From Endomychus coccineus (lineage: Eukaryota > Arthropoda > Insecta > Coleoptera > Endomychidae), in contig OY294071.1 in the NCBI GenBank assembly GCA_958510875.1, positions 36,858,581-36,922,580 of the forward strand: 64,000 nt of DNA, written 5' to 3'. The translations under genes and the position numbers were made by a program. This document shows, in pieces, positions 3,206 through 45,929 of this stretch (the stretch's first letter is position 1; each line of letters opens with the position of its first letter). The notes under the pieces were generated by a model that worked only from the letters and a program-made list of their open reading frames with translations, was not told the DNA's origin and made no database searches.

Positions 3206-4672
3206 TTAACATGAAATAGTATAAAATGCATTTATAACGATATATTTTTCAAAATTTTCCAATAAAAGTGTTTGCCTTCTGTCTGTAAAAATATGTTTGT
3301 ACAAAGAAAAAGATCTTTCAACATCTACCGATATGATCTGGCAATATTTTAATTTGGGTAGTAAGTTATAAGGCCAAGGTATTACTTCGTTGGATGGTTT
3401 AGTATCAAAAATATGTTTGACTACCATTAAATACTTAAAGCCTTCATTCTTTCCCACAATAACTTCGAGTTTACTTCTTACTTGATTTCCTACATCACCG
3501 GGAACTTTTTTGCATTTGTCGGAAAAAGTTTCAACAATATTAATTGATTCTCTTGAATTCATATTCCTACTTTCTAACGAAGTTATTATATCTGGTATAA
3601 AACTAAAATTAACCCTAATAAAAACAAGTTCCTTAGCTAAATTTACATTTTTGAATACTGCTTGACTTTGCACTACACACTGTGAATTGTCTTCTAAATC
3701 TAAAACTATGTCTTTAATGGCTTCAAAATGGTCTGCGTAGAATATCGCGGCCTTAATCCATGTTCCCCATCGAGTAATTACGGGCTCTGGAGGTAAACTA
3801 ACTCCTGGCAATTTCTCTCTATAGATCTGCACTCTTAGAGGTGCTTTCAAAAACACTTTCTTTACATTTGAAATTAATTTGTTCACCAAGGGATATGCTG
3901 TTCTAATAGTTTCTGCAACTCTGTTTATCCCGTGTAAAAGGCAAGTGACATGTACCATATTGGGATAAAATATTTTTAAGTTTTGGCCTACTTTAACCAT
4001 ATACGGCGCTGCATCAGACAAAAACACTGAAAACTTCTCTACTGGAACTGAATTTGGTAAAAAAAAATTTGATAGAGACTGCTGAATAAATCGAGTTACG
4101 GTCACATTATTTGTTTTGTCTAACTGTTTAGAAGATATTAAATATGGCTTCCCTGGATCATTTTCTTGAAGCCCTCCAATAATAAGATGTGCGATATATC
4201 GACCACATGAGTCTGTGCTTTCATCAACAATAATATAAAAATGTTCATCGCCCAGTGAAACTTTAATTTCTTCCAATACGGTTTCGTATACTGTTTGCAC
4301 ATACTTCTTTCTAAGTGTGGATTCGTCAGGGATGTTTTGATTACAATATTTTTGCAAAAAATCTCTGAATTGTGTATTTTGCAGTTTCTTCAAAGGTATA
4401 TTTGCTGCGACTAAAGCTTTGCATAAGTCTTGATGAAACACCTCCATTTCACTCTTTGGTTTGACATTTTGAAATGCAGTTTGCACACACTGCTGAACAG
4501 GCACAGATTTATTTTTCTGCAACTTAGCTTTATGCATAGTTGTTTTCAAGTGTTGATCAATTTGGAACTTCTTTTCACAAACAATGATTTTGGCACAAAC
4601 TTTGCAAAACACTTTATCCCCACTAAACTCCAACTCAGGAAAATTTTTAATCCACGAAGCGGCTTTCGGCAT
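3206..4672 (-). CDS. hAT-family transposase, 488 aa
   Basis: DDE-type cut-and-paste transposase that would act on the ends of its own element. An N-terminal BED-like zinc finger is visible (C23, C26, H41, H47). The RNase H-like core follows: IIVDEST with D150, FLSDAA with D220, the CLLHGIN motif with C244 and H247, and RWGTW around W302. The C-terminal hAT dimerisation region reads SVDVERSFSLYKHIFTD with E452, the third acidic residue. All three catalytic acids and the family motifs are present. The length is at the short end of the family (usually about 500-700 residues). The methionine at 4672 starts directly before the zinc finger. The zinc finger resembles CGBP1-type BED proteins, so a domesticated role is possible but less likely given the intact terminal repeats. 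Confidence 0.88.
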   Translation of the reverse strand: MPKAASWIKNFPELEFSGDKVFCKVCAKIIVCEKKFQIDQHLKTTMHKAKLQKNKSVPVQQCVQTAFQNVKPKSEMEVFHQDLCKALVAANIPLKKLQNTQFRDFLQKYCNQNIPDESTLRKKYVQTVYETVLEEIKVSLGDEHFYIIVDESTDSCGRYIAHLIIGGLQENDPGKPYLISSKQLDKTNNVTVTRFIQQSLSNFFLPNSVPVEKFSVFLSDAAPYMVKVGQNLKIFYPNMVHVTCLLHGINRVAETIRTAYPLVNKLISNVKKVFLKAPLRVQIYREKLPGVSLPPEPVITRWGTWIKAAIFYADHFEAIKDIVLDLEDNSQCVVQSQAVFKNVNLAKELVFIRVNFSFIPDIITSLESRNMNSRESINIVETFSDKCKKVPGDVGNQVRSKLEVIVGKNEGFKYLMVVKHIFDTKPSNEVIPWPYNLLPKLKYCQIISVDVERSFSLYKHIFTDRRQTLLLENFEKYIVINAFYTISC

Positions 4673-5243
4673 TTTAGGCGTTTGAAATAGATATTTTCGA
4701 AATCACTCTTTTCACACTGAAATCTATCGACAAACTCAACTATACAATATAAATACAAAAGAAGAGACCACATTTGCTGTCCAATTAGGCACCGAAAAGA
4801 AACAAGACAAGAAGGTTCACTCGGCGTCGGTACTTTGAAGTCCGAACTACAAAAGCCAGCCACCGCATTCCAACTAGACCCCGAAAAAAAAAAAGTTTTG
4901 TTATGAATTCATTCGCGCACCGAACAGAAGTTTCTGTTCGGTGACAATACTTACTACCACCGAACACGACTTGGCACCACCAGGGATTATTTAAGTGTGC
5001 CAGCGAAATAGACAACATTAGGGGTGGAGCTTCAAGTGAACCTTCTTGTCTTGTTTCTGTTCGGTGAATTAGGCAAGCTGATTACTTGGAAATTCCTAAA
5101 CATCCAATAAATGCCGGCAATAAACCATATGATAATAAAATGGGTTCATAAACCATATAATAATAAAACCTACCCACCTTTCAAATTATTTCACTTATCT
5201 GCAAGGGTCGCACTTAATCTTTTGATAAAACGAAAAACATAAA
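4673..5243 (-). promoter_or_regulatory. hAT 5' region with inverted repeats and hairpin
   Basis: Noncoding sequence upstream of the transposase. It contains a perfect 26 bp hairpin at 4918-4943 with 12 bp arms (CACCGAACAGAA and its complement) around GT. Variants of the ACCGAA block recur nearby. A separate 24 bp perfect inverted repeat pairs 4798-4821 with 5035-5058, enclosing the hairpin. These could be promoter, regulator or transposase sites. No TATA box was assigned. Confidence 0.45.
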
Positions 5244-5335
5244 AATATGCACACAAATTTTATTTTTGCCGAAATATGCAATTTTTTATGAAATTTGTAA
5301 AAATATGCAAAATATGCAAATATATGCACTTTGCA
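5244..5335. repeat. Right subterminal TATGCA motif cluster
   Basis: At least six ATATGCA-type motifs lie within about 90 bp next to the right terminal repeat. They mirror the left cluster. Confidence 0.6.
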
Positions 5336-5351
5336 TATATTCCGCCCTTTA

Positions 5352-5359
5352 ATCGTAAT
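5352..5359. repeat. Right candidate target-site duplication of hAT
   Basis: ATCGTAAT immediately follows the right terminal repeat and pairs with ATCATAAC at 2981-2988 (6 of 8 identical). Confidence 0.6.
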
Positions 5360-6440
5360 CATGCAAACGGCATGATGAAATAATATCTTATCGTCTCATC
5401 ATCATTTTGCCCCAACCATAAGCAAAGTTTTTGAACGATTGCTGCTGCAAGGATCTACACAAACCACGAGCTCCAACCACTATTACCAAAACATCAATTC
5501 GGATTTCGGGGAGACCACTCAAACACTGAACAAGTTCATCAAATAGTTAATGAAATATCAAAACGTCCCGAAGAGGAGAAATACTGCAACGCTGTATTCC
5601 TAGATAAGTTCCAGGCATTCGACAAAGTTGGCACATGCTTGTTCTATAAATAGAATAATACACTATCCAGTAACTAGTTTCTCCTATATACCTGTTAGAT
5701 GTGCACTATCAACAAATTTCAAGACCGGAATTTTCACAGGGTATTGTTCTCAACACCACACACAACCAATATACTTGAAACTCGTAACACAACAATCTTC
5801 TCCTTTGCCGACAATGTATTGATACTTGCTATGAACGAAGACCCTCTGAGTGTCTCCCAAAATCTGCAGCATCACCAGGATATAATTAAGGATTGTTACA
5901 CTAGGTGGTGAACAAAAATAAATGAAACAAACTCAATTCAAATGAATGTTTATCACGCGTCACATTTGCAAAATACTTGTAAAATGCACATTGAAACTTA
6001 GAGAAACAACTAGATCTAAAGATCCGGAAAATGTACTGGCTTCAATGTCGACAATCAACACTCGCGGACTGCAACAAGATCATACAAAATCATGTCCAAG
6101 TCTATTTGGTTATTGACTTCATCATTGGGCCTGCACAAAACCTACTTACTGAACATAACTCAAAGACTTCAGTATAGAGTACTAAGATCGATTATGGATG
6201 CACGATAATACGTAACTAACCAGACCCTTCACGATGACCTGAAGATTCCTTTCATCGGAAATGAATTCCACCAGCTACTGCGTAAAGCAAGGATTAATCA
6301 AATGTATCCTGCTGGGACGTTAGAATCATGAGTCAAAGCATACCTACCGTAGATGTCAAATAATTGGAAGGGATTCATAAAATATTTAAGTCTTCATTCC
6401 AGTACATTTAAAAGAAGATGCAACAACGCGTGGAGGCGTT
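5360..6440 (+). pseudogene. Jockey-clade LINE relic, reverse transcriptase part
   Basis: Continuation of the copy broken at 2980. Shifted frames show SKVFERLLLQ (about 5420-5450), the HQFGFR-like block and the A-box region with FLDKFQAFDKV (about 5600-5630). The C box region reads FADNVLILAMNEDPLSVSQNLQ (about 5800-5870), corresponding to FADDTAIL in active elements. Near 6150-6240 there is a degenerate form of the Jockey block QRLQ..ILR.I.DA..YVTNQTLHDDLKIPF. Multiple stops and frameshifts make it inactive. The catalytic YADD/FADD motif has itself lost its second aspartate (FADN). The end at 6440 is approximate. Confidence 0.8.
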
Positions 6441-8260
6441 GAACTGTATAAATTATTTCTTGTTGAATCTCGCTGCGTCGTTGTTTAACTTGCGCTAATA
6501 CCATCATGGAAAATACTGATGGTAATTAAGAACGGCCGAATGAATAATTATAAAATATATTAAACGAGGTAAACAGAAAGAGATTGTGTTGTTAGAGGCT
6601 TTGTACACACAATGTACAAACGAAATAAGCACTTAAATGGTTTTCCATCTGATATCTATTTATAATGAATATGCAAACTGTGGTAACTGCTATTCATTCC
6701 GTTGCGCTTGCAGTTCATCAGAGTTGCTCATGATCCAACCTAATTAGTAGCAATAGTAGCAATGAAATCATTAAACTTATGTAAAAAAATATGCAGAATA
6801 GTGAAATAAATCACAAACTTTAATTGCTAACAATTATTTAGTCACGCAGTGGCATTTTCAAAGAGAGTTGTCATCTAACTAGTTGAAAATGTCACTGTGT
6901 TACGAAACAATGGTAAGCATTCAAAATTTGCACTTTTCACTTTACACTTTTCACTATATTACATATTTTTCAAAATAAATTCACGATAATTCCATAGAGG
7001 TGAATTATAACACATCATAACCACGGAAATGTCTGTTTTGTATTATTCTCATTCGAATTTCCTTCAAACTCCAGAATCAATACAGTGAATCAAACGGATT
7101 CATTCATTCTCGTATTGTAAAATCTTAAATACGGCGAACATTGAAATATTCAGACTTGGGTGATACCTTGATCGCTTAATCATACTCATATTTCATTTTA
7201 TGGCGGCATACTTTGAAAGAATTAAATACACCCTGAGCATTATATAATACGAACAATGATGCATCTGACACACTAGATGAATGAATGAGAACACTTCTAG
7301 ACAGTAAGGCCCCACTTAATTATAGTTATTCCAGAAACATTTAAGGTACAACAATACATCAACCCTTAAACTGAATTTAATGACTGTTCCAGATGCCAAC
7401 AAGAGAATAAAACAAGAACAATCTACTCGTATACACTATTTAATTCATACTTCATAATAATTTAAGGATAACAGAAGGTACATAGACACAATTTCTAGAT
7501 TTTCCGCAACAACAACAATGTGTTATCGAAGTTATTAATAAAACGAAACAACATGGAATCTCTCACTTTGAGTAGACTTATATTAAGACGTGAATCTATA
7601 ATGGAGGGAGGATAAAATTTTGATGTACAATACGCATGAGCATGCCGCGTTTATTCCATAAATATGGGACTTTATTCATATTTTATTTTAGGGTTGTGTT
7701 CAACTCCGGTATTCACAGAGTTGGGAATTTTAACAATAATAGGAACCAAATCTATGCAAATACATGTAATTATCAGTTTTACATTACGCATCACTTTTTT
7801 CAACAGATCACAACTATAATTCCTTCACGTGCTGTTTCATATTGAAGCCGTGAAGCAATTAGTAAAAAAGATTATCTAGTTAGTTATAAGATCAGCAGCA
7901 ATATCATATCACAGATGGCTTGGTTAAATTCTGGGATGAAATAACAGTTAGTTGAAACAAGAGATTCATTATTGCAGAAATTGGTACACTTACAATCACA
8001 ACTATATTTGCCTTAGGTATTCTCATTAACGGAATACATTGAAACATTCCTTGATAATCACATCGCGAGGTTGTATAAATCGTTAACATAGAGTTAGAAC
8101 GGTGAAGAGAAGAGATATATCTCACGAATAAACGTAATTCAGTTGTTGCCATTGTATGGCGATGAATGAAAGGAGTATTTTCTTAGTCTCAAAATACATT
8201 ATATTCCGAGTTACTATGATATGCTGTAGTTTTATATTCACCTTTATAGAATGTCTGAAT
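6441..8260. other. AT-rich stretch with one imperfect inverted repeat
   Basis: No recognisable gene. The one structure is an imperfect 21 bp inverted repeat, 6841-6861 against 6883-6903 (18 of 21 paired by eye), around a 21 bp loop. Its right arm resembles the terminal motif AATGTCACT..GTGACGAAACAATGG found at 33533-33563, so this may be a fragment of the same dispersed repeat. Confidence 0.5.
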
Positions 8261-8270
8261 TCAGAATTCT

Positions 8271-8935
8271 GCTCGTCTCATATACAATGACCCTAATAAA
8301 ATCAGGTTTATAAAAGGATAATGGCACTTGAAATAGGAATCGGAGTTGTTCTGAGATTTGATTGAACAAATATTAGCAATAATTAAATTTTTTTTGAATT
8401 TTCCATTTTGTAATATTTCATAAGAGGAAATCTCGATTTTGTCGACCTCATCGATTCTAATGATACACCTATATGATACGTTTCTGAAGTTGACTTAACC
8501 TCACACCATGATTACCCACGTCACAGAGTCTCGGAACCCTAAATATTGCTCATCTCATACAAGATGACCCTAATAAAATCAGGTTCATAGAGGATAATGC
8601 ACTTAAAATTTGAATGGGTGTCCTTCTGAGGTTTAACTGAAAAAATTTCAGCGATTATCCCAAATTTTTCATATTCGATTTTTGCAAAAATAGATATGGA
8701 AAAGACTCTATTTATTTGGACCTCATCGATTCTAATAAAACATTGATATGGTACGTTTTCGAAGTTGACAAATGCGATTATAGCCTTAGTTTTAATCTCA
8801 GACCAAGTTACAGAATCTCGATACCCTGAATTCTGCACATCTCATATACAATGATCTTAATAAAATCATGTTGTAGAAGATAGTTCGATTTTGGTCGACC
8901 ATTCGATCTACTTAACTATATTATAGCATGTTAGT
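8271..8935. repeat. Tandem repeat, about 280 bp period
   Basis: Two full units and a truncated third begin at about 8271, 8548 and 8835 with the shared start CTCATCTCATATACAATGAC followed by CCTAATAAAATCAGG. Later landmarks in the unit are GACCTCATCGATTCTAAT and the GATACGTTT..GAAGTTGAC block. The copies are diverged. The same unit, also as an adjacent pair, occurs at 35460-35915, so it is a dispersed satellite-like repeat and not a local duplication. Confidence 0.75.
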
Positions 8936-10886
8936 TGTATGTAGCTCATAACTCATTTTGTTTAACGAAACAACGGTTATTGAAGTGTAAATTTAGGTTT
9001 TATTGACATTTTACTATTTAATTTGTCGAGTTACACGCAGTGAATACCAAAGATCTAGAATTATTGCATATTTTCTACCAAAGCAAACAAAGCATCCCGG
9101 GAATATTCTAACTGATAAGACTAAACTAAATTTGGTTCGTATTTAATCCAGGAATAGTTCAAGAATTTCAGATGAATGCACCTCGCATGTTTCTGTTTAA
9201 TCGTTTTTGATATGGTATGCAAATCTATATTCAAATGAAGTTAGGTTTCGGATAATCATCGTATAGTGAAGTTTTGTCAATCATCCCGGAGACATAATAT
9301 GATGTCGCAAACGTAATCACTGTTATAAGATTATACCAAGTAACATGAAATTAATAGAATTATATCGGGGAATTAGTGATACAACCATCACGCTTTGTGC
9401 CTTTAATCGAACCTGTTTTGTCAAACAATCAGCAATGCATTAACTGTGTTTGCGATCTTTAGCCTATCTTGATCAAATAATCTACTAGTTTATGCAAATG
9501 ATTGGAACGCTCCTTCAATTCCATTTTCTTACATGGCAACAGATAAATACCCTTTGAATGGTATTAATGAATTTCAACCTTGGATGCACACAGACTATTG
9601 GAAACTGAAATACAAACTTCATACTGTCAAATTACTCTACGTAATTATTCATTGGAGTCGAATATTTGATTCTCGAGATGCAGAGAAATTATATTCAAGG
9701 ATACGTATTGTTTCCATGCATGAATATATTTTTTGCTTAAAAATCATTCACAGTTGTCAAGTAAGGAAAGATTATTAACCCGTAACCCAAGATAATGACA
9801 CACTATTCACAACACCACAAGAAATAGCCAATAACCAATAACCATATGCCTGAAATTGTATTTCGTCAGCTGCACCTTCGATGCACACGTTTCGCGAAAC
9901 ATTATAACATCTTCAGAACCGGATTGGAACTCATAATTTCTGAAATGTACTCACCTCATTTAGTGATTATTCTTCTCAAAAACTTTGGGAATATATGTCT
10001 TCATATATTTGAGTCAATTTCAAACATTTTGGAAAATTACCTGAATCGAAGCTTATAAGTTTGAATGGCATTTTAATGTATTTTGAAATTAATTTTGATG
10101 TTTAAGATTTAATTTCAATAAAACCTGGACATTTATCATCTATCCCTCTATTCATTTCACTGGGAATTTTACCTTCCGTTACTAGATCTAAAAAGGTTAA
10201 ATTTTTAATTCAATTCATTTCCTTTATATGAGATGTTCTATTATTTTAAATAGGAGATCTCAAAGTAAGAAATAAACAGCACAATATTGACACATTTTAC
10301 AAGATCCGGGATAAATCAGCATTGAAGTTTCAATATTGTGAAAACAATAACAGAATTGTTCGAAGGCATTAACGTTTTGTGACACGTGCACTGAATTTAG
10401 TTAAAACATAATTTCAATTTTTACATTTATGGCTTAGAGCTTTCCACTGTAACGAAGCTCAAAAATATAGTAGATTATCAAATAAGGAACAGGAGAAATC
10501 GTTCGTAAAGTCAGAATGAATATTTCATATCATTTCAAAACTTGCAAAATGAAATATTATTGAATAATTCCGAATAATTATATTATTGTAAAATACTTAT
10601 GTTATTTAGCATTGAAATTATCTAGTTCATATTTCGAATAATCCAGGATTGATTCATTCAACGCTCGAATTAATCGATACGTTAGATTAGTTAGTTAGAT
10701 CGTGTCAAAATCCCGTACCCTCTTCTAGCATGATTCGGAAGATGCGCCGATTATGTAAATTATAGTGATGTATGTGAGTCGCGGTAGAGGGAATATCCCT
10801 CCATAGAATCCCTTTCCATGATACCCGGAGGAAATAAGGTATTCAAACTAGATCGCAGCCTAAGAACGACACTTCTACTACTGACT
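8936..10886. other. AT-rich stretch, no supported gene
   Basis: Only short open frames (70-81 codons) without recognisable domains. At 9866-9920 there is a short piece resembling the GCGAAACGT-type 3' end of Penelope-like or LINE elements (on the minus strand CTGAAGATGTTATAATG then CGCGAAACGTG), too short to assign. A perfect 11 bp palindrome GGGAATATCCC lies near 10792. Confidence 0.5.
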
Positions 10887-10970
10887 CAGACTTGTAATTT
10901 AGACTTCTACCTTTGACTTCTAATTTTGACTTTGATTTCTAACTTTTAATTTGAACTTCAAGAAGTAAGT
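10887..10970. repeat. Degenerate short tandem repeat
   Basis: About six imperfect copies of a 13-15 bp unit close to GACTTCTAATTTT, all in the same direction. The copies are degenerate and no function is suggested. Confidence 0.55.
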
Positions 10971-11214
10971 AACCGAGGTACTACCGACAGTGAAAATTAA
11001 TCAAGATTCAATTAAGGTGAGATTTAGAACCGCATAATACCTGTAAATCACCGCTTGCTTATATTTCAGCGGAAGCTATTCTGGATTCATTACTTGTGAC
11101 TGCGCCGTGGCATTGTTTGTAGAAATAATCACATAAATTGTTTAAATTATCCGAAGTAGATTCATTCTTGCTATACCTCGTTTACCGTTGATAATTATAT
11201 TGATTGAACTGTAA

Positions 11215-11529
11215 GTAATTGCATGGTGTCAGAGTGTGAGAAAGGTGAAACAGAATCACACCCTTCAGTTGTACACTGTGCATATCCGGAAATAACGGAA
11301 GGGTGTAGATGAGCTACCGGCAGTTGCTGCACACTGTGCATATCCGGAAGTAGGAACTGCAGGTCAAAGTGTGTTTGTGGATCACAGTACTCAGTTGTAC
11401 ACAGAAATAACGGAGTACTGTTGATTGAGATATCTATAGTTTTTGCACACTGTGCATATCCGGAAGTAAGAGCTATAGATATCCTTTTTATGAATGAAAT
11501 TGAAAGAGCTGACACTACTTTGCAATTAC
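11215..11529. repeat. Array of four hairpins with different stems and shared loop
   Basis: Four consecutive inverted repeats. Unit 1 has arms 11258-11266 and 11298-11306 (ACACCCTTC / GAAGGGTGT). Unit 2 has arms 11317-11325 and 11355-11363 (CCGGCAGTT / AACTGCAGG, one mismatch). Unit 3 has arms 11384-11392 and 11413-11421 (ACAGTACTC / GAGTACTGT). Unit 4 has arms 11429-11439 and 11473-11483 (GATATCTATAG / CTATAGATATC). Stems are unrelated in sequence, yet the loops share CACTGTGCATATCCGGAA and a following TAA or TAG. Unit 3 has lost the middle of the loop. Loops 2 and 4 contain the palindrome TGCACACTGTGCA. The whole is enclosed by GTAATTGCA (11215-11223) and TGCAATTAC (11521-11529), each with a nearby GTGTCAG or its complement. 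A 106-codon frame runs through it on the minus strand (11195-11515), which may be incidental. Function unknown. Confidence 0.8.
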
Positions 11530-12226
11530 CGTGTGAAGGGATTCCGTGTACTAACTCAGATTAGAGCAGAATCAATTGAAGTACATAGTCATAGTTTGTA
11601 ATTGGTTGAACCATAAATAATTACAGATGATGTGCGGTTGCGGGGCGAGTATTGATAGCCGGACGGAAACCGTTTGCACCCGTTTCACCTGCACTGCTTT
11701 TTAAGTTTGTACCGCTTCGATTAGTACCTAATAGAAAGTACCGCACGAATTTATATTAGTTGATAGTTTGCTTGCTTTATCAAATATCTGTAAATAACAT
11801 ACCTATAATTAGTTTGCTATAACCGCTTGCCGTAAAGATTGTACAGAATTTCCTTGCATTCCCTCCGAGAGATTAATGATTACATGATATGTTGTTGACT
11901 ATTCATTCACCGGTGTTACCATTGTGTTTTTTAAAAATAAAGTCAATAGTTGAAAAAGTTGTCTCATTGCAAGGAAGTGAATGAAACCTCTGCTAACATC
12001 AACTTATAAAAGACTGTATAACCCGTTCTCGCATTTAGTTACAATTAAAGCCTGTAATTCAATGCAAATCATTTTGCCCTGTCAAATGCGGTCCCTGGTT
12101 ATATTCTTCACTGACGCTATCCTGGGACAAGGTAGTCTTTAGACAGCACTGTGACGGCTTTGTTGAGAGGGCCCTAGCAGAAGTCCTCGATGAGGAGTAA
12201 ACCTTTAACAAAAATCTGGCGCCCGA
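11530..12226 (+). mobile_element. Possible LTR retrotransposon 5' edge (weak)
   Basis: The sequence changes character here: less AT-rich, with a TATA-like TTATAAAAG at about 12003-12011, a polyadenylation-like ATTAAA near 12047, and TGGCGCCCGA at 12217-12226. The last matches the first ten bases of a primer-binding site for lysine tRNA, a usual primer of Gypsy-type and retroviral elements. The order promoter, poly(A) signal, primer site is that of an LTR followed by its leader. The match stops after ten bases, no second LTR was found in the window, and no gag or pol follows. The LTR start was not located. A solo or truncated relic is the best reading; chance is possible. Confidence 0.3.
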
Positions 12227-13136
12227 GAAATAAAGATCATCCCGTAGTAAGTATTCAACGCCAAAGTGACAAAGCACGTCACACCACCTTTACTTCCTAT
12301 AATCATACAGGTATTCTCTAGAGTTGCTACCTCATGTAGGCTAAATGGAATTTCATCTCCATTTATTATATGTTTACCTATCCTTGTCCTTCCCTAATTG
12401 TTGTGCACTATGTAATGACCGGAGAAATATATTGAATGGTGGAAGAACTTTTAGAATATCTTGATTTGAGATACTAAGGAACTAAGATTGTCAGATGTTT
12501 ATGCATTATATTGCCGCTGCCATATTCATAACTGGAATTAGTAATAGGGCAAGAATATACTCAGGAAATCGAGATGATTCAATTCAGCAGATCGTGGATG
12601 TTCACTTCCTCGTCCGATCCACCGATTGATGAATATGTTATTGGAATGATTTCATACTGCTACGGGATAATGAGCATGGACACTAACTTGTAAGTACGAC
12701 ATAATAGCCCTAATATTCAAAGGAATATTATCTAGGAGGGATACATTATGCTAGGTTAAGTAATCCTGTACATACGTTTTGCTGGCCTACAATGTGCTCT
12801 CCGACTGTACTTAACCAAACGTTTGATTCAAATTCTTGCTGAAAATGCATCGGTACTATTTGAATTTTCAACAGCCCATGTTCGATTTCAGATAGCTAAC
12901 TACCAGCTCAACCTGAAATTGACAAATTATGGTTTTCCATATATTTACAGCATCAACTACAAGCCCAGGTTCCTTCAAAATGATGCACTTCAGCGACAAG
13001 CATTAAGTGCAAATCGATTGTTGTTTCAAAATAACAAATCATATCTCAAAAATCACTATCCTTGAAAATATCTCAGAGGAATACACAAATATACCGTACA
13101 TTAAACGTAAGAAACGAGCAAATTTTTTTTATATAC
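12227..13136. other. No supported gene
   Basis: If 11530-12226 is an LTR edge, gag would be expected here. None is seen, and there is no frame longer than 80 codons. Confidence 0.5.
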
Positions 13137-13735
13137 ATTGACTACACTAGAGGGAAACCTATAATGTTTGAAGAACATCTTTGAGCCAGGAGTGGAATGT
13201 AGAGAGAGGAGATAGGCATTCGTATATTTTTCTTGGAGGTTTGAAGGTTATAGAAAAAAGTTCGGCAGGTCTCGAGTTTGATAGTGAAGTGATGACTAGT
13301 TTGAACTCGTCTAGTCCGCCTATCTGAAATCTCTTGTGGTGGAACAACAACAACAATGACGAGATTTATGATGAACACCGACCATGAAAATGTCTATGGG
13401 AAAGGAAGAGATCTCCCAGCTTTCTACGACGTGCTATAGAGGTCATTGAACTCGTGAGTGTGACATCATCAATTAAATATGGATATAATCCAAGATGTTC
13501 AGCGTGTGTTTGGGAACCAAACTCCAAACATGTAAACAGTACTCCAAGATAGGTCGAATCTGAGCTATGTATATGTAAAGTCGCTCTTGGCATGGAATAT
13601 AAAAGCTAGTTTTGAAGAAGCGGTTTTCGCAATGAACCTCACATGATCGTGTCGTGAGAGGGTGCTGTTGGTGGTGATCCCGAGCATTGTTATAAATTAT
13701 CATTAAAAGAAGAAATGAAAAACTCAGGTCCATAA
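13137..13735 (-). pseudogene. CR1/Jockey-type LINE relic, ORF2 C-terminal part
   Basis: On the minus strand, shifted frames give IRPILEYCLHVWS (about 13520-13560), a block after the reverse transcriptase core. It is followed by LIDDVTLTSSMTSIARRRKLGDLFLSHRHFHGRCSS (about 13366-13500) and the C-terminal end down to 13142. The same blocks occur in the plus-strand copies at 15640-15800 and 16180-16400. The 3' end (GTAGTCAATGTATATAAAA on the minus strand) matches that of the 40.3 kb copy. Frameshifts and stops are present throughout. The family is a non-LTR retrotransposon; the exact clade is not decided. Confidence 0.75.
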
Positions 13736-14834
13736 CTTCTTAAATCATCTCATTTGCGTTCAAGTAAGCTTTACTGAAGTATTGCTCATTCTTCACTGAA
13801 TATTCTGTGTATATTTCGATAGTTTCTATAGTCTGTTATTTTATACGCTTTGTAGTATCAGTTGGAATTAAACGGGAAGTTTAACGTAAGATTGATGTAA
13901 TAGATATTCCTTCAATTAATCTATCATAGTATAGAATGTGTAAGTGGTAGTGAAAAATCGATGCCTCAGGAAACGTTTGAAGAGCTGTCTTAGTTCACCC
14001 GACTATGCTAGCTTAACGTATGGCTTGCCGTAAACAGAATGAAGACGCCAAATCTAAGCAGTTATAAGTCTAAACGAATTGCATCCACATAGATATCTGC
14101 CAATTTCATTGGCTTTACGGGATGCTCGATCCCAATATTATACATCTCATTAACCATTTAATAATTCGAAATGGATACTTCATACCATATAATTTTATTT
14201 ACGAATCTATCACTGACAGAAATCTACATTTGTACCAGGTACGTCCGAATTCACCCAATGAACAGATTTCGATGTGAATAATATGCTTTGAATATATTCC
14301 AATATTACAATAGATCTACATTATGTTCTAATTATTTGAATACATGCATTGATTAATGGCTGGAACAAATTTAATAATTATGAGGGGCCGGTTGAGTTTC
14401 ATCATTCCGTGTTTGTTACAAAGATGCTATCGAAGGGAATTCCAATTAATGTTTGTATCATATATAATTTTATTGGAAGAATACATTAGTTTGTGGCAAA
14501 CAAATTACTGATGTTACGTTAACGGAAGGATGTTTTATCATTATTTCACAGGCTTTTAGTTGTTATTGTTGTTTCTTCCTGTTAGTCATTGATTGAGTCC
14601 AATTATTTGTATTTTCTCCAGATATACATACATCCATGCTGTTTACGATTATTATTATCATAATGATTTGAAAGTTAGAATCAATTACAAGTTACAGATT
14701 TATTGATTTCGTACATATTTGGAATATGAATATTCGATGAGGGACATTTTTCGTTGAATCAACTTTGGTTTTCTCTATTTAAAGGTACTCCTGGGCAAGA
14801 AGAAGGATAAGTTTTTGTTTGGATTGTCCAGGCC
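13736..14834. other. AT-rich stretch, no supported gene
   Basis: No domain, long frame or repeat recognised between two LINE relics of opposite orientation. Confidence 0.55.
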
Positions 14835-15990
14835 AGTCCAATAAAGGAAGGAGACCCTTCCCATCAATTATAAACCCATTGCACTAAAGTCTGTGAACTC
14901 TGAAGGAATGGAAGAAGCAATCAACATCAAGCTCATCCAATATCTAGATAATCGCTTTCGTCACCAGAGTTCAATAGGGGAACTGCTTGCCTACGTAAAA
15001 TATATATGACTGACATCCATTCAAAAATATGGGATATCTCCAAAGTATTCGACCGAGTCTGGCAACAAGGCCTTCTTGAGAAACTTCCGGTATATGGTTT
15101 TACCGGTCCTTCTCTGTAGTTGCTATCAAAATGTCTTTCAGGCAGCTTAATCCACGTGGTGATTGATGTAGTGTCCTCCAATACAATGGATATTAACGAT
15201 CAGTCTTGGCATCAACTTTTTGCTGGTCCATATCAACGATATGTTGGGAGTGACTTCCTGTTTCATCTACAGCCTTGATATATCATCCAATCAAGGAGGA
15301 CGTGCAGCCATACAGGTCCACGCAATAAATAAACATTTGGCTAGAATTTTGGAATGAAGATCTGATAATCTAGTAGAGTTTGGCCAAGACTCTACCTTGT
15401 ATTTCCTCCAGGAAGGGGTTCCACCATCTCTAATATGATGAAGTCAGGTACTATGGAGTTCTCAATATCCATGCTCGGTACCACCAGCACCTTAGCATGG
15501 GACGATCATGTGAGGTCTATTGCGGAAACTGTTTCACAGAATATTGGTTTTTATTCCATGCCAAGGGATACTTTACACGCCATCTGCTCATCATGATCTC
15601 TAAAGCGCCGATTTGATCTGTCCTGGAGTACATGTTTGGAGTACAGCTCTCAAAGATACGCTCAAGCTCTCAGACTATACTCAGAGGAGAGCTATGCAAT
15701 TGGTTGATGATGCCACATCTACGAATTGACTGATATCTCTGGAACATCGTAGAAAGGTGAGCAACATCTCTCCTTTCAATAGATATTTTCATGTCTGTTA
15801 TTCCACCATTGGAGATTCTAGGTAGGCAGACTGGACTAGCTCACGCTGGCCACTCCTTGACTGTCGAACTGGCTGAACACCTCTCTATCAGACTCAATCT
15901 TTCATGAGAATGATGAAGTTGTGGAACTCTATGCCTAGTGTGGTCTTTCGAAACTGAAATTACAATGCGTTCCTCCTCTCTCAACAATTC
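14835..15990 (+). pseudogene. CR1/Jockey-type LINE relic, RT to C-terminus
   Basis: The longest copy of the family in the window. Across frames one reads YKPIALKSVNSEGMEEAINIKLIQYLD (reverse-transcriptase start, about 14865-14950), SKVFDRVWQQGLLEKLPVYG (A-box region with the conserved aspartate, about 15030-15100), and LLVHINDMLGVTS (about 15210-15250). Next come SDNLVEF (15360), the degenerate TSTLAWDDHV block (15485-15510) and LEHRRKV (15740-15760). The copy is full of stops and frame changes and is inactive. A second partial copy follows at 16016 in the same direction. Confidence 0.8.
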
Positions 15991-16015
15991 ATTCCTGGCT
16001 CGCATGTTGATCTAT

Positions 16016-16440
16016 GAACATTGTAGGTTTTCCTCTTGTGGAAGCACAACGTCTTCTTTATCCATGTCCGGGATTACTATCAACAGCACACTCTCATGGA
16101 ACGATTATGTGAAGACCGCTTCACAAACATTTGGTTTTCTATTTCGTGCCAAGAGCTACTTTCCATCCCAGCAGCTCCTCATAATCTACAAAGCACAGAT
16201 GATTCGACTTGTCCTTGAGTACTGTTCACATATTTGGGGTTCAGCTCCCTAACATATGCTGAAGCTCTTGGATTTTATCGAGAAGAGAGCTATTCATCTG
16301 ATTGATGAAGTCAGACTTACGAGATCATTGACCTCTCTAGAACATCGTAGAAAGGTGGGCGATATCTCCCTTTTCTATAAATATTTCCATAGTCGGTGTT
16401 CATCAGAAGTCTCTTCGAATTGCATTAATTGATATGCTTT
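16016..16440 (+). pseudogene. CR1/Jockey-type LINE relic, second partial copy
   Basis: One frame is well kept and reads SGITINSTLSWNDYVKTASQ..FGFLFRAKSYF, then RLVLEYCSHIWGSAP up to 16250. After a stop it resumes as LIDEVRLTRSLTSLEHRRKVGDISLFYKYFHSRCSSEV (about 16300-16415). It repeats the 3' part of the preceding copy in the same orientation, so it is either a second 5'-truncated insertion or a local duplication. It is less damaged than its neighbour. Confidence 0.8.
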
Positions 16441-17395
16441 GTTTGTTTCAACGATAGTTTACAAATTGCATCATTTCGGAGTTTACTTAAATTTCGACTT
16501 CTGTTGAGCAAATTTAGTGTTATAATTATTCTATAGTAAATGTGGTGGCTAGATGACAACTTTGCACTATTGCCTCTACAACAAGTCAACAACATGGTCC
16601 CCGAACTTCAACTGCTTCAGAATGAAATTGTTTACACCATACATATTCAATTCTCACCAACTTCAGCCGTTGAGTGAATCAGGTATGGAGACAGGAAACT
16701 CTCCGCGAATCACATTGATAAGAACTGACTGCAATATGTTTGTTCTTTAGTTAGCTACTACAAATGCCCATAATCGAACTTGTTATGCTGGTGAAACGAA
16801 TTCGATCAATTCTAACCATATCTAATTGTTGAAACCAACCATGCGACTGTCTTTTACTCAGTTCGATAATTTGCAAAGTGTAATAAAGTAAATCTGCTCC
16901 ATCGATTCGAAATGAAAAAGACAAAGTTAGTTTGATTGATTGTTTTATTACTGATCACCCAATAAGAGATCCGAATACAAGAGACCACTTCCGATCGAAA
17001 ATTACTGTAGCTACAGTAACTTTGCATATCGCATTGTTATTATCTAATACTCGATTATGTTTTTACTGCTCTAGTGTTAGAAAGTCATTCAGTTCAAATG
17101 AGATTATGACTGAACTTAGCCAAGGAACCATTTCAAGTTTCATCATAAACAACAACTAGTAAAATATCCGTTCCTTAATTGCTCTATCACTTTGAACATT
17201 ACCAAGTAAGTAATTTCGTTCTAGTTCTCTTGCAAGCTACGGTAGAAATTATGTTGTTCAAAGGAGAAAATAGACAAATATATTATCGACAGTCGTTATC
17301 TAGGTATACGTGTATGATAGAGAAAGCAGCGCTAGCTCTATTACTGACATACGAAAAATGAAATCGATCAACAACGATACTTGAACGCTTTCAAT
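16441..17395. other. AT-rich stretch, no supported gene
   Basis: Frames of 60-75 codons at 16553-16750 and 16932-17159 have no recognisable motif. Confidence 0.5.
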
Positions 17396-17775
17396 TTTTA
17401 TATTATGTAATTAAACTCTTGTGTCAGGTCTGACAAGTTCGTGCTGACATCTGGTGTTCCACAGGGTTTAGTCTTGGGCCCTCATCCGTTCATATTTTCA
17501 TTGATGCTGTTACCAGAATATTCAGGGTGAAATGCTCTTATGCGGATGATATGAAGATTCATTTACAGATCAGAACTATATTATAAGATATCAGGATAGG
17601 TTACACTTACGATGCCAATCAAATGAGCTGGGTCTGAACACCTCGAACTGCAGTGTGGTCTCATATACCAGAAACGAGTCGCTACTGTTGTTTTCATACA
17701 GCATTGCTTCTGTCCCAAGCATGTAAGATTAAAAAGACCAAGCCAAAGTTCTCTGACGTCACAAAACTTGTTCAA
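17396..17775 (+). pseudogene. LINE reverse transcriptase relic
   Basis: A short piece carrying the B and C boxes. It reads SGVPQGLVLGPHPFIF (about 17450-17500, the SGVPQGSVLGPLLF motif of LINEs), then FIDAVTRIF and CSYADDMKIHLQI (about 17500-17575), the catalytic YADD. The following sequence resembles NELGLNTS.C.VVSYTRN. Frameshifts lie between the blocks. It belongs to a different family from the copies at 13-16 kb, as the C-box context differs. Confidence 0.7.
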
Positions 17776-20700
17776 TAGAAATTGGTTTAGTGTAGCAGCA
17801 TCATTCTGATCATTTGAATTAAATTTAGGGGTTCATGGCTCTCTGCTTAAAAAACAAAATGAGCGTTTCGACAATCAAAATATCAACTATGGGGTATCAT
17901 TGGACCCAGAAAATTATATAAATGTCAGAAATGTTATAATATGAGCACCCAATTTGAAGACCGGAATTTGAAAAACTCTCCAAAAATGTCAGAAAGTGTG
18001 TCCAATGTTCCAAGTCTTAGAAAATAGCTATGAAAAGAATGGATAAAGAAGGGTGTACCATGACGTTGTGTTACACAGTTTTATAAGATTCTTTCTCGTG
18101 ATAGAAGATAATGATGTTATCTAGCAATATTGTTGATTGAAATTTAATTAACTGCATCTCAGAAAATCAGCTATTGGTATAGTATATAACGACTTGACGA
18201 TAAGCTGACTGAAGAAATACTTTAAGCCTTTTAGTAGGTTTGTTTCGGATTCGATAATTAGTGCTTTATTGAAAACTGAAGAAAAGGAAAATACGCTAAC
18301 ACACCAGGAGGTACGCTTCTAAATCGATATTACGTTAGTTCAGCTCGTTCTGGACCCGCTGTGAAGTTCTTTGTCCATAACTGCTTTTCAGTGTGTTGCC
18401 GATAATGCTTTATTTTCGACCATTCTCACCCTTTCTAGTGCATGTAAATAAAGAACTTTCTAATGCCTGTCACTATAAACTAACGCGAAATGTGAGACAG
18501 GTTATACATTACAATTGTCCTTAATTGAGTTTTTTACTCAAATATTGTTCAGCACATAGTCATTCGAACTGGCAGTTTTATTAATGAAACTAATGTTTCA
18601 TTCTCCATATATTCCTCATATTATGGTCTACACTCCTTTGTGTTCAGGAGAATTATACTTTCATAATGGACTTATTCTTGTGATGGTTCAAGCTGTATAT
18701 TCACGTCTCTCAAACTCGTATTCATGAACACTCAGACAAAACACAGTTTTTGTAGATCTCCCAATTTTTACCCATTTCGATAGAATTAAATCTCGTTTTT
18801 CAACATTTAGAGTGGAAAAAGTTTGATTCAATAACTTACTAGAGTCACCACATTGACCATAGTCTAAAATAGGCCAAGGATTACATTTGTTTCTAATTCG
18901 GTGAGCACAGCTATCTGAGATCTGGGTGAATACGTATTTCTTTCTATAGCGATGATCGTGATATGAAAGCCAGGTATACAAGAATTTCTTTGAAGACAAA
19001 TCGGAACAGAACTTTCTGATATCAGGACTCAGGACCTTACAAAACAGTTAGCTCCATAAAAGAGAAAGATTGTGAAAAGAAATATTTACTCTTACAATGA
19101 ATCAGTAGAACGGAGAAGTTCCATATAACTTTACAATAATTTGCATGATAAACGACACTTGGGCTGCAATTTGACTGATGATGAATAAAGATATGTGAAA
19201 CAGTTTAATTTTTTCACAAGCATCCGAATTTAGTTGGACTTTTCTAGCTGATTTTCATGATTGATTACAGATATCTTTCGGAATTCACATTTTGTTACTT
19301 TTGATGTCTTCCACAATTTTTGATTGTTCAATTTTATTTGAAACCTTTGTTAGCAAAATATGAAATGTAGTAAGGATCACTCAAAAGATTATATTATCAG
19401 AGTAGATGTCTGCTTTTTCATTCTACATTATCTCTTTCATTACTTATAGCCGAAAGTTTGAAGTTATACCAGTTCGGCGCATACAGATTGGAATTTACAA
19501 AGCATTAGATACAAGATTATGCTAGTGTTAGAATATAGCCACATATGTATCCAATTTTCACGAGAGCGAGAGAGCTATTAATAATAGCCAATCAATTATT
19601 TGCAACACGGTCAAGCTTGTATTATCTGTCTGAGTTTTCAAAAGGATGGTTGCCCTCTACATAAAATCTACCACAGGTTAGGAATTTATTAAGCACTCAT
19701 TTCTCAAATCTGATGATGATCGACTACGGGGATATCCTCTGGCCCGCAAGATCTCCTGAATTGCGTAGTTGTTTCTATGATCGATTGAGGTACCGTCTTG
19801 CCAACGAAGGATATCCTTCTGTTTTATGAATTCGGTTCATTTTATGTAGACCATTTGGATAACATTTCAATGTAACATAGAATATAATGTAACGTATTTC
19901 CTTCACAGTTTCTGAATATTTCCAATATATTTTCTGTTCCTACACTTGACCCGCAGGTCAGAAGACTATCTTGCTAACAAAAGTGAGAAATTTCTCCTGA
20001 TCAAATGATCACAGCTTTTTATAGTTACGGTTTCAGGTGATATTTACTTTTCCAATATTTCCGTTGTATTGAATTCCCAACACACAAAAGTAAACATAAC
20101 TCATATGTTTCATGATATTTTCAGCAAGGCTATCATAGTTTTGTTGAACGATAATATAGCATCAAGTTACCCACAGGTTACATTTTTAATATATTATTAA
20201 GAAGCGCAATCAGTCATATGCCTCACAGCTAACACCCAAGCTGAATGAAAATGGTATTCCTTCGAGATTCCGATAGATATATAATTTAAAATAATTCTTC
20301 TATTCAACTCTTTATTTACAAAGAACAAACTTTCTCATGGACAAACTCTAAACATATTGAAACGTATTTATGATGAATAGCACATTTCCCAAGAAAGAAA
20401 CTTCTCAACGAAAATTATCTCACCACATCCATCAATATTCCCAAGCATTCAGTTCGTATCGCATTTACTATCCGGACATAATTATCTTGAATTTACTTAA
20501 TTGTGAAATTGAATTGTCGTGAAGTTACCCAGCTAAGGGTTTTGACATTATCCTATTTGGTTTCAATGAAAATAAAAGAAGCTTACTGGGTAGTTTTACA
20601 CAATTTTATTAATTACAGCAATGAGTAATAATACTTGAACTGGTTCCCTTGTTAAACAGTATTTTTTGGAATTCATCAATTCGATGTAAATTTGATAATG

Positions 20701-42993: not shown

Positions 42994-43116
42994 GTTTCGT
43001 TTTCAAAAGTCATTACGGTATTATATAATGTGTTGTCGTGTCGAGTAGACGTGCCATCTGTTACTCCTTAATTATCATTATCAATCTGTAGTTTTGAATT
43101 AAAATTAGCATCCACT

Positions 43117-43728
43117 ATGCCACCCCCGGAAAATACAAGATCTAATTTACGTGAAGATGATGAACTTATCCAAAGGATTGTCGAAGAAGTACTTACATCT
43201 GAAAATTTTCTACAAAATTTAGTAGACAAATTATGGAACAAAATTAACATTCAAGTGCAAAAGGAAATCAAGGTTATAGAAAGTAAGGTTGAGTCATTAG
43301 AAAATGAATTAGTATCAGCTCATGATGAATTAGAACAATATTCAAGACGTAATAATCTAAGATTTTATGGAGTTCCGAAGAATGAAAATGAAAATACGGA
43401 AGAAACTATAATAAACTTGTGCAAATCTAAACTGGGTATCAAAATTTCAACGGATGTTATCGACTTTTGTCATAGACTAGCAAGTAAAGAAGGTACTTGC
43501 CAACCAATTATTGCCAGATTCTGTAAGTTAAAAGGAACTAGACTTGTATGCCGTGAAGACCTAACTTCAAGAAGGATTGGTGTTTTAAAAACTGTCGGTG
43601 AGCAATATGGGATTAAGAACGTGTGGTCGAATGGAGGTACGATAATGTTCAAAACTAATAATAAGCTATATAAATTTAAAACTTTAAATGACTTTCACAA
43701 GTCCAAATTGGAATTACAAAAGGAGTGA
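43117..43728 (+). CDS. LINE ORF1 protein, 203 aa
   Basis: Nucleic-acid-binding ORF1 of a non-LTR retrotransposon. A predicted coiled coil (about residues 42-76, ESKVESLENELVSAHDELEQ) ends in the characteristic SRRNNLRFYGVP (76-87), the start of the RNA-binding domain. CHRL (118-121), CREDLTSRRIGVL (145-157) and YGIKNVWSNGG (164-174) mark the C-terminal part. This layout is common to insect LINE ORF1 proteins. The frame is open from start to stop. The link ARFCKLKGTRL (133-143) is shorter than I expect for the family, so a small in-frame deletion is possible. ORF2 starts 204 bp downstream. Confidence 0.8.
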   Translation: MPPPENTRSNLREDDELIQRIVEEVLTSENFLQNLVDKLWNKINIQVQKEIKVIESKVESLENELVSAHDELEQYSRRNNLRFYGVPKNENENTEETIINLCKSKLGIKISTDVIDFCHRLASKEGTCQPIIARFCKLKGTRLVCREDLTSRRIGVLKTVGEQYGIKNVWSNGGTIMFKTNNKLYKFKTLNDFHKSKLELQKE

Positions 43729-43932
43729 TGAGTTCACCTTAGAATCTACTCTCTTGTACTAATACTTGCTAAGAAACCATAAATTAATTAATATTCTTTA
43801 TCTAAAAGTAAAAAACGTGTGAAATCGATTGTACATTTCTTTATTTTTATCTTCATCTTTTTCAATTCTGCTATAAATACTGAAGTGGATTTCCTGTTTT
43901 CCAGCTAGTAAATATAATATGAACGAATCATC

Positions 43933-44850
43933 ATGAAAAACTCATTATCAATTGCACATTTGAATATTAGGTCTTTAATACCAAAAATTTCAGAAATTAA
44001 GCAAATGCTTGAAGAAAAGCAGTTTCACATTTTAGTTTTAAGCGAAACTTGGCTGTCACAAGATGATTTAGAAGATAGATTGCAAATTGATGGCTATAAA
44101 GTAATACGTAAGGACAGACAAGACAGGGGCGGTGGAGTGGCATTATACATCTGCAACACAATCCAATTTAAAATAGTTGATTGTAATGATTTCATTGAAC
44201 AACTTTGGATATGTGCAAGTATATCTAAGGAAAGGTTTATATTTGGAGTTGCCTATAAGCCACCCACGTGCAATTATAAGCAATTCCTAGAACATTCCGA
44301 AGATACAATTATGTATTGCTCATCTATTTCCGATAATATTTTCTGTCTAGGTGATTTTAACATTGACATGTTAAAATTTGAAAATAGTGGTACAACTTAC
44401 TTAAATGATCTACTTAGCTCACTGGAATTGACACAGATAATTACTCAACCCACTATGAGTACTAGCACATCTCACACACTAATTGATCTTATAATTACAT
44501 CCGATCCATCTATCATTTTGAACTCTGGTGTTTTAGAATATGATTTCACAGACCACTCTCTTATTTTTTGTAATATTAAAGTAAATATTCCCCAAACTAA
44601 ACTTTTTTATACCTATCGCGATTTTGAATACTTTGACATTAATGAATTTCAGTCTTATCTTAAAACTTTTCCTTTTCACTATATATATAAAATTAACGAT
44701 ATACATTTGAAAATTGAGTACTTCAATAAATATATATCAGATGCTTTTGATATACATGCACCATTAAAAACAAAGTATACTCATTGTAAACCAAAATCAC
44801 CCTGGATCAACAACTGTTGGGTTGCCGGGATATACTCCGCGTTGTCGTAG
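43933..44850 (+). pseudogene. LINE ORF2, endonuclease domain only, truncated
   Basis: Open frame of 305 residues. Residues 1-220 form an apurinic-type endonuclease that nicks target DNA: HLNIRS with N11, SETW with E38, GGGVALYI (66-73), YKPP (109-112), GDFNID with D141 and N143, and TDHSL with D207 and H208. All catalytic positions are present. Native sequence runs to SPWINNC (about residue 295). The last ten residues come from the Penelope insertion that begins at 44817. No reverse transcriptase, which should follow, exists on either side of the insertion inside the enclosing element. LINE copies normally lose their 5' end, so a missing 3' half implies a later deletion or another origin. Confidence 0.85.
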
Positions 44851-44877
44851 ATTGGTTTCCATAGGAACCGTTGATGT

Positions 44878-44917
44878 GACGACGTTTCGGCACAATCTCA
44901 TGTGCCATCTTCAGGTC
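44878..44917 (-). ncRNA. Hammerhead-like motif, left Penelope copy
   Basis: Minus strand: GAC (44917-44915), CUGAAGA (44914-44908, fits CUGANGA), a hairpin with five-pair stem GGCAC/GUGCC, then GAAA and ACGU-type palindromic short stem III, C, and GUC that can pair with GAC. All core positions are kept, but stem I is only three pairs and an unpaired U sits at the base of stem II. Penelope elements carry such minimal hammerheads in their terminal repeats. Activity is uncertain. Confidence 0.5.
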
Positions 44918-45929
44918 TTTTCTTCAGGGCTGCTGCTCTGCTTCGAGTTAACTTGAAACTGATCTCCGTTGATCCTGTTGGTGTTTTATGTATCATTGTT
45001 ACATCTGGATGATTTTGCCGGTTTGATGCGTCTGATTGAGTTTGTTGGTTTGTTGCGTTCGAGCGATTTTCTCGTTTCGTTGCGTTCGAGCGAGTTTGCC
45101 GGTCCGTTGAGTTAGTCTGGTTGACTGTTCTCCTGGGTGGTTGAAGGGCTGGTTTCCAAGCAGTTGGGAGTCTCTGTGTATCATCTCTTGTATTAAGATT
45201 TGAAGGTCGCTTCTCGATTTCGATAGCTTCTCTTATGATGCGTTTTCTTTTGTGCTCCAGGCTGGCTAGGACTCGGGTGTTGTCAAAATCGATTTCATGT
45301 GGAGTTTTTCTCACATGTTCGGCAAGTGATGAAGTTGTTTATTGCTTTGCGACTGCATTGTGGTGTTCTTCACGTCGAATGTTGATTCTTCTGTTAGTTT
45401 GTCCTATGTAGCTTCCTCCGCAATCTTTGCATGGAATTTCGTAGACCCCTTGTGTTTCAGGATTTATTTTGGATTTAGCGTTGGGCAGTATTTGACCAAT
45501 CTTTCTTGTCGTGTTGAAACTTGTCTCAATGTTGTGTTATTTGAGGATTCTGCTGATCTTCTCTGTAAGTACCTTTGACGTATGGGAGATGGGCTTTGGC
45601 GACAGGTTCTCCTTTTTCTTCTTCTGTGGTTCGATCTGTCTGGCGTCGTGGCCTTAGTGATCGTCTGATATTGTCTTTTGAGAACCCGTTTTGCTGTAGC
45701 GTGGTTTGTATTGTCTGCATTTCTTGTTGTTTGTGGTCATTGTCGGTTAGTCGGTCTGATCTGGTTATGAGTGTTTTCATTACGGATTGAAGTTGTGCTG
45801 GATGGTGATGTGACTGGACGTTCAAGTAACGATTCATGTATGTTGGTTTCCTGTATATGGTGTGTCCTATTCTGCCGTTTGTCTTGCTCACAAGAACATC
45901 TAGGAAGGGTAGTTGGTTGTCCTTCTCGA
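44898..45929 (-). pseudogene. Penelope copy, left, frameshifted
   Basis: Encodes the same protein as the right copy but is broken. One frame (45526-45891) covers the post-RT region (SKTNGRIGHTIY to HLPYVKGTY). Another (44898-45314) covers the C-terminal end from KTPHEIDFDNTRVLAS to KRPEDGT. The GIY-YIG core in between (about 45320-45520) is out of frame and contains stops. Confidence 0.85.

Follow-up and report, generated by a model that had tools for sequence, protein, structure and literature searches.

Structured RNA elements in LTRs are already known, and retroviral 3' RNA elements such as the constitutive transport element of Mason-Pfizer monkey virus are among those most like the array reported below. 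The constitutive transport element is a structured element near the 3' end of a retroelement RNA that shows a repeated loop motif to a protein. It consists of one long stem with two related internal loops, whereas the array comprises four hairpins with apical loops and private stems, and an export role could be suggested for the array by analogy only. The tandem enhancer repeats of retroviral U3 regions resemble the array in lying upstream of the TATA box and in varying in repeat number; they are not known to have covarying hairpin arms. Likeness of another kind is offered by RsmZ and the other Csr/Rsm bacterial sRNAs, in which several motifs per RNA bind copies of one protein (PMC4005645). 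Binding by the array is putative, and RsmZ differs from it in being a bacterial stand-alone RNA with GGA motifs; common ancestry is not implied. Drosophila roX2 shows tandem stem-loops in a protein-bound insect RNA (PMC6451107), and protein binding would again be putative for the array. Unlike the array, roX2 is a host long non-coding RNA, and the MLE contacts described in PMC6451107 lie in its helix grooves rather than in a common loop. Four private-stem hairpins with concerted loops are, as far as found, a variant not described before: no like array was encountered in the open-access literature searched, which does not in itself prove absence, and a full-text search with the four loop strings returned a single occurrence in one circRNA-biomarker paper.

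The array is located in the window, i.e. the whole 64-kb stretch of DNA that was analysed. Three states of the loop are distinguished, state A (TGTGCATATCC), state B (TGTGCATCTCC) and state C (TGTGATCTCC). The features of the array and of its surroundings are as follows:

10448-12283, + strand: solo LTR, probably of Ty3/Gypsy type, 1,836 bp, TGTAAC...GTCACA, with a CCAC duplication on both sides and ends common to copies
11215-11232, + strand: outer closing stem, 5' arm (18 bp, 3-nt bulge opposite), 3.8% divergence among copies
11258-11306, + strand: hairpin H1, loop state A (inverted repeat, structure, covariance model match)
11316-11364, + strand: hairpin H2, loop state A (structure, covariance model match)
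11384-11421, + strand: hairpin H3, loop core deleted in the window copy and present in most other copies
11429-11483, + strand: hairpin H4, loop state A (inverted repeat, structure, covariance model match)
11274-11291 (H1), 11332-11349 (H2) and 11448-11465 (H4), + strand: loop core common to the three hairpins (3 matches; shuffle mean 0.02)
11509-11529, + strand: outer stem, 3' arm (bulge 11518-11520), 4.9% divergence among copies
12005-12012, + strand: TATA box TATAAAAG, exact in 21 of the 30 copies where the region was found
12229-12234, + strand: AATAAA, a putative poly(A) signal that would belong to R; 18 of the 26 copies where the region was found have it exactly

The four-hairpin array is genuine. 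The four successive inverted repeats of the original prediction were all located in 11258-11483, with stems of the kind it had described, and they form two related pairs, H1/H3 and H2/H4. In the window copy each hairpin has 15-18 stem pair positions; H1 and H3 contain one mismatch each and H2 two, while H4 has no mismatch other than G.T pairs. The loop had been thought common to all four units, and this held for H1, H2 and H4, which share the 18-mer, but not for H3, deleted for it in the window copy and carrying the full loop in most other genome copies. The outer inverted repeat said to enclose the array is present as paired flanks (11215-11223 with 11521-11529 and 11224-11232 with 11509-11517), but it is not the border of the element.

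The array folded as RNA to -112 kcal/mol on the + strand (z = -5.65) and to -89.2 kcal/mol on the - strand (z = -4.17), and the DNA fold of the array had z = -4.65; in each case 0 of 100 shuffles was as good. In a 1-kb fold H1-H4 were all retained and the outer stem gave way to other pairings. The outer flanks were not significant in a plain duplex-energy test: of 2000 shuffles 344 did as well, and of 128 controls taken from the window 13 did.

That the stems keep pairing rather than sequence, the core of the original prediction, was borne out by the comparison of the four hairpins with one another. When they were aligned by sequence only and scored on the hairpin structure, 94.2% of cells were paired and 11 of the 15 main-helix pairs showed two-sided changes with pairing held, whereas neither value was reached in any of 500 shuffles and sliding the 3' partner by 1-3 columns lowered pairing to 33-52%. 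Within each related pair of hairpins (15 pairs each) four of four two-sided changes were compensated, with a randomisation P of about 2.5e-5 for H1/H3 and about 4.5e-5 for H2/H4. Positions that pair in one hairpin of a related pair but not in the other are limited to the two H2 mismatches, which are paired in H4; an A.G mismatch is found in both H1 and H3, two pairs from fully covarying pairs. The 19-nt loop core shows no difference (0/19) in the H1/H2, H1/H4 and H2/H4 comparisons, and the arms differ at 24, 26 and 15 of 36 positions, respectively. A covariance model built from H1-H4 had these four hairpins (50.6-78.2 bits) as its sole matches above 15 bits in the window, the next scoring 14.7.

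The array sits in the middle of what is, judged by its sequence, a solo LTR of a Ty3/Gypsy-type retrotransposon. Homology among copies runs past the outer repeat, to 10448 and 12283 in most of them, and the LTR has TG...CA termini and a short target duplication; exact 4-bp duplications were found in 17 of 26 other copies having both ends. A MITE with the outer repeat as terminal inverted repeats was ruled out, since the copies extend beyond that repeat. A primer-binding-site-like string directly after the LTR (L027, L045, L088) and a purine tract before it were noted, the border strings in L027, L045, L088 and L089 being identified by eye. In L033, a decayed copy, two LTRs flank RVP (protease), RT_RNaseH (RNase H) and rve (integrase) pieces in that order (Pfam; no RT family match passed), and this domain order together with the 4-bp duplication suggests that the element is of Gypsy type. 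The positions of the TATA box at 12005 and of AATAAA at 12229 suggest that the array is part of U3, as everything upstream, array included, would be. In LTR elements the genomic RNA carries U3 at its 3' end, so that by standard LTR biology the array would be transcribed within the 3' UTR of this RNA.

Two minor observations concern the LTR element itself. A primer-binding-site-like string is also present at window positions 12217-12226, within the presumed R region and upstream of the string that follows the LTRs in L027, L045 and L088. L033 also has protein kinase pieces (5003-5586; Pfam Pkinase) that lie after the integrase piece and before the 3' LTR, with E values of 6.7e-14 and, for a match that falls below the curated cut-off, 6e-07; they may derive from a captured host gene or from a nested insertion.

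The loop 20-mer with up to 2 mismatches was found 140 times in the genome (906 Mb in 129 contigs; 99 and 41 matches by strand), compared to 1 match of the reversed-pattern control. The first copy set consisted of 40 stretches around places among 100 listed of these 140 matches, the loci being thus chosen by loop. The concern that loop copies elsewhere might lack paired arms proved unfounded, as the covariance model gave 161 matches at E <= 1e-4 in the window and the 40 stretches, with arms paired around the loop copies. When 115 loop copies were compared with the four arm sets, 101 fitted one set on both sides, 7 were chimeric, with arms from two sets, 2 had one arm outside every set and the last 5, having diverged too far, were excluded. 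The chimeric hairpins were found in scattered old copies. The proposal that a short loop element had been repeatedly inserted into palindromic sites is unsupported, since copies of this one LTR show the four arm pairs again and again in an unchanged order. The length of the array is variable, and in L059 a 126-bp two-hairpin unit is repeated several times.

The amplified unit of L059 (1448-2443) has its own loop variant in six H3-type units. In a hand count over the first 100 of the 140 matches, 19 of the 21 state-A loop clusters on contig C1 were in + orientation, while other contigs look mixed; two cluster pairs on C1 lie within 10 kb of one another, so each may be one element.

The loops of the 40 copies diverged from the window by 3.3-4.5% and the two outer arms by 3.8 and 4.9%; seven of the hairpin arms diverged by 2.9-7.0% and the eighth, the H4 3' arm, by 10.2%, the linkers by 6.9-13.1% and the remaining LTR by 7.7-8.5%. 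These loci were chosen by loop, and some 60-bp bins elsewhere are as low as 3.2%, so that the array cannot be called the least variable stretch of the LTR. Among orthologous copies two-sided change was counted in 7 cases, where permutation gave a mean of 3.2 and reached that number in 68 of 2000 runs; 4 of the 7 were judged misaligned, which left 3 compensatory and 0 broken. One-sided changes in the compared copies break pairs in 57 cases and keep them in 35, and a majority of broken pairs is expected of dead copies.

The strand on which the structure might act was approached by comparing G.T with A.C pairs. There are 10 of the former and 0 of the latter in the window array, which we count as about five independent events. 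One A.C pair does occur in H4 in its family form. One-sided changes giving G.T and A.C among the copies stood at 33:15 (21:12 distinct) in a narrower count, and at 70:60 (40:34 distinct) in old and 7:1 in young copies in a wider one; outside the array they were even (611:595 in old and 106:94 in young copies). The strand signal, strong in the window, thus fades with more copies. Mean folding energy was lower on the + strand than on the - strand in every hairpin. On context, action as RNA is tentatively favoured over a protein-binding DNA cruciform.

The young copies, 20 in number, were taken from the top of a DNA search with the array, in which 40 of 140 candidates were scored. In this lineage the loops have changed in concert from state A to state C and the stems are unchanged. 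State C is exact in 77 of the 80 loops, the same two loop changes being present in all four hairpins. All 20 copies have four hairpins with their own arms, an intactness that is partly a selection artefact, as the copies were drawn from the best-scoring matches to the array. Five further C-type arrays include three with state C in all four hairpins, a broken one (L093) and one with two altered loops (L094). State C with at most 1 mismatch has 230 matches in the genome, 115 per strand, and among 100 of them listed at least 3 sets are paired about 10 kb apart in the same orientation. In one of the pairs on contig C1 the borders show, where they should, a string like a primer-binding site and a purine tract, and on contig C2 the arrays of one pair share 99.4% identity over 347 nt, which indicates that young copies with two LTRs exist in this lineage.

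In the first copy set of 40, no B- or C-type loop was present in 33 and the other 7 contained B or C. Arrays with at least 2 canonical loops (n = 56) were uniform in 51 cases and mixed in 5. When a tree was made from the LTR sequence outside the array, with the 55 of 61 copies that were long enough, and rooted at its midpoint, the non-B/C copies are basal and the C copies form a late clade, adjoined by B-containing copies, four in the sister group and two just outside. L054, within the late clade, has loops reading C, C, B, A. L055, with B loops, falls outside the clade in which C copies are united with mixed ones, and A, B and C therefore do not follow one another in a simple succession.

Fixed differences between the 33 old and the 20 young copies numbered 0/126 in the hairpin stems, 1/35 in the outer stem, 1/85 in the linkers, 2/19 in each of three scored loops and 53/1433 in the rest of the LTR. 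The stems with the outer stem included (1/161) and the loops (6/57) both differed from the rest (53/1433), with P of 0.037 and 0.022, respectively. The H3 loop was left out of this count because it is absent from the window copy; the young H3 shows the same change. In 17 of the 20 young copies CCGGAA in H3 is replaced by CCTGAA and the apical 3-bp pairing is lost, and in 5 of the 20 the inner 5' arm of H2 is H4-like and still able to pair.

As an explanation, to which we give about an even chance, we propose that the array is a multivalent RNA docking element in the U3 of the LTR, in which homogenisation or joint selection acts on the loops and nothing but pairing is preserved in the stems. 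Sense RNA would fold near its 3' end into four hairpins presenting one common apical loop. The loop would most likely be recognised by a protein, candidates being the Gag of the element itself and host factors for RNA binding or export, and its repetition would give avidity. The stems would be selected only to pair, and each hairpin would for this reason keep a private stem. Likeness of the loops within an array may come from short-tract exchange between hairpins, from selection for one binding specificity, or from both, and by these means a new loop variant would spread to all four positions. Similar loops on private stems are what would be expected if the partner reads the loop and the stem is a mere scaffold. 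Exchange is visible in the 7 chimeric hairpins among 115, in the amplified 126-bp unit and in the H4-like inner arm of H2 in 5 of 20 young copies.

It is possible, though rather doubtful, that the specificity of the partner drives the same loop change through the four hairpins, compensation being the way in which the private stems evolve; a stepwise switch of binding site between the element and the host or Gag would then be recorded in the mixed arrays (A with B, then C). LTR copies of differing age preserve old, mixed and new loop arrays of a structured element, and one genome thereby makes readable how a repeated putative binding site changes everywhere with the scaffold kept. The array also allows a clean distinction, since different outcomes are predicted by hairpin-templated mutation and by selection for pairing.

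Mutation without any selected function would produce such an array if template switching (hairpin-templated correction) kept the stems paired and recombination via the identical loops homogenised them. Hairpins can arise and be maintained by template switching, with compensatory changes of several bases (PMC8794818), and loop-centred exchange is seen in the same chimeric hairpins (7/115) and H4-like H2 arms (5/20). Frequent correction should erase mismatches, however, and the A.G mismatch that H1 and H3 both retain, only two pairs from fully covarying ones, argues against it. Since, in addition, the stems have 0/126 fixed changes against 53/1433 in the rest of the LTR and the chimeric hairpins seen lie in scattered old copies, we consider this explanation unlikely.

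The proposed RNA element was also weighed against a DNA-level enhancer in U3, whose transcription factor sites would be the loops and whose palindromic arms would give rise to cruciforms or to half-sites in pairs. About 0.48 kb separates the end of the array from the TATA box downstream, the loop contains CCGGAA followed by (G/A)T, which is ETS-like, and the state-A loop of H2 and H4 has an odd dyad, TGCACA-C-TGTGCA, recognised by eye. Array length varies, as with the repeated 126-bp unit of L059, which resembles the U3 enhancer repeats of retroviruses, and the DNA fold also beats shuffles. Yet covarying private stems are needless for binding sites, the state-C change breaks the dyad and CCGGAA has become CCTGAA in H3 of 17 of 20 young copies, and an enhancer is therefore held to be improbable. 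Pairing of identical loops within one RNA or between two genomic RNAs, as a dimerisation or packaging signal, would demand that the loops change together, as all four did, and could use the TCCGGA palindrome of A, B and C and the 4-base palindrome seen by eye near the apex in each state, but short palindromes are common by chance, TCCGGA is lost from H3 in 17 of 20 young copies and U3 is not known as the usual site of dimer signals, which makes it very improbable.

Comparison with the databases returned no counterpart of the array in the collections searched: none of 4227 Rfam families matched the window at the gathering score, and a permissive Rfam search of 11100-11650 gave 5 matches, all far below their gathering scores. 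The loop 18-mer had no match in viral contigs. Single matches of the loop 16-mer in viral contigs (6 stretches) and of the 18-mer in prokaryotic genomes (5) lacked the array stems and were rejected; one of them, from Pseudomonadota (L002), is flanked by long arms, but their pairing is in a different register and it was taken as chance. A six-frame Pfam search of 6001-18002 found no family, and a 106-codon minus-strand frame over the array, having a GTG start and too few words in common with any protein, was treated as chance. MicroRNA precursors are long-stemmed hairpins with conserved arms, and a microRNA cluster was rejected for the 15-18 stem pair positions of the hairpins and for conservation between them of the loops, not the arms.

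Other features were noted in the window. An open 498-codon frame of hAT type (DUF659) occupies 3206-4702 on the - strand, with 78% identity to its best, unnamed protein match and 70% identity to the best named one, from the longhorn beetle Exocentrus, by which the window is recognised as DNA of a beetle-like insect. A non-LTR-type endonuclease frame (Exo_endo_phos) and a downstream 391-codon frame, Penelope-like by eye and with no Pfam match, are found at 43072-47088. Tandem arrays with a unit of about 141-143 bp and longer periods of 263 and 401 bp extend over 50847-52353.
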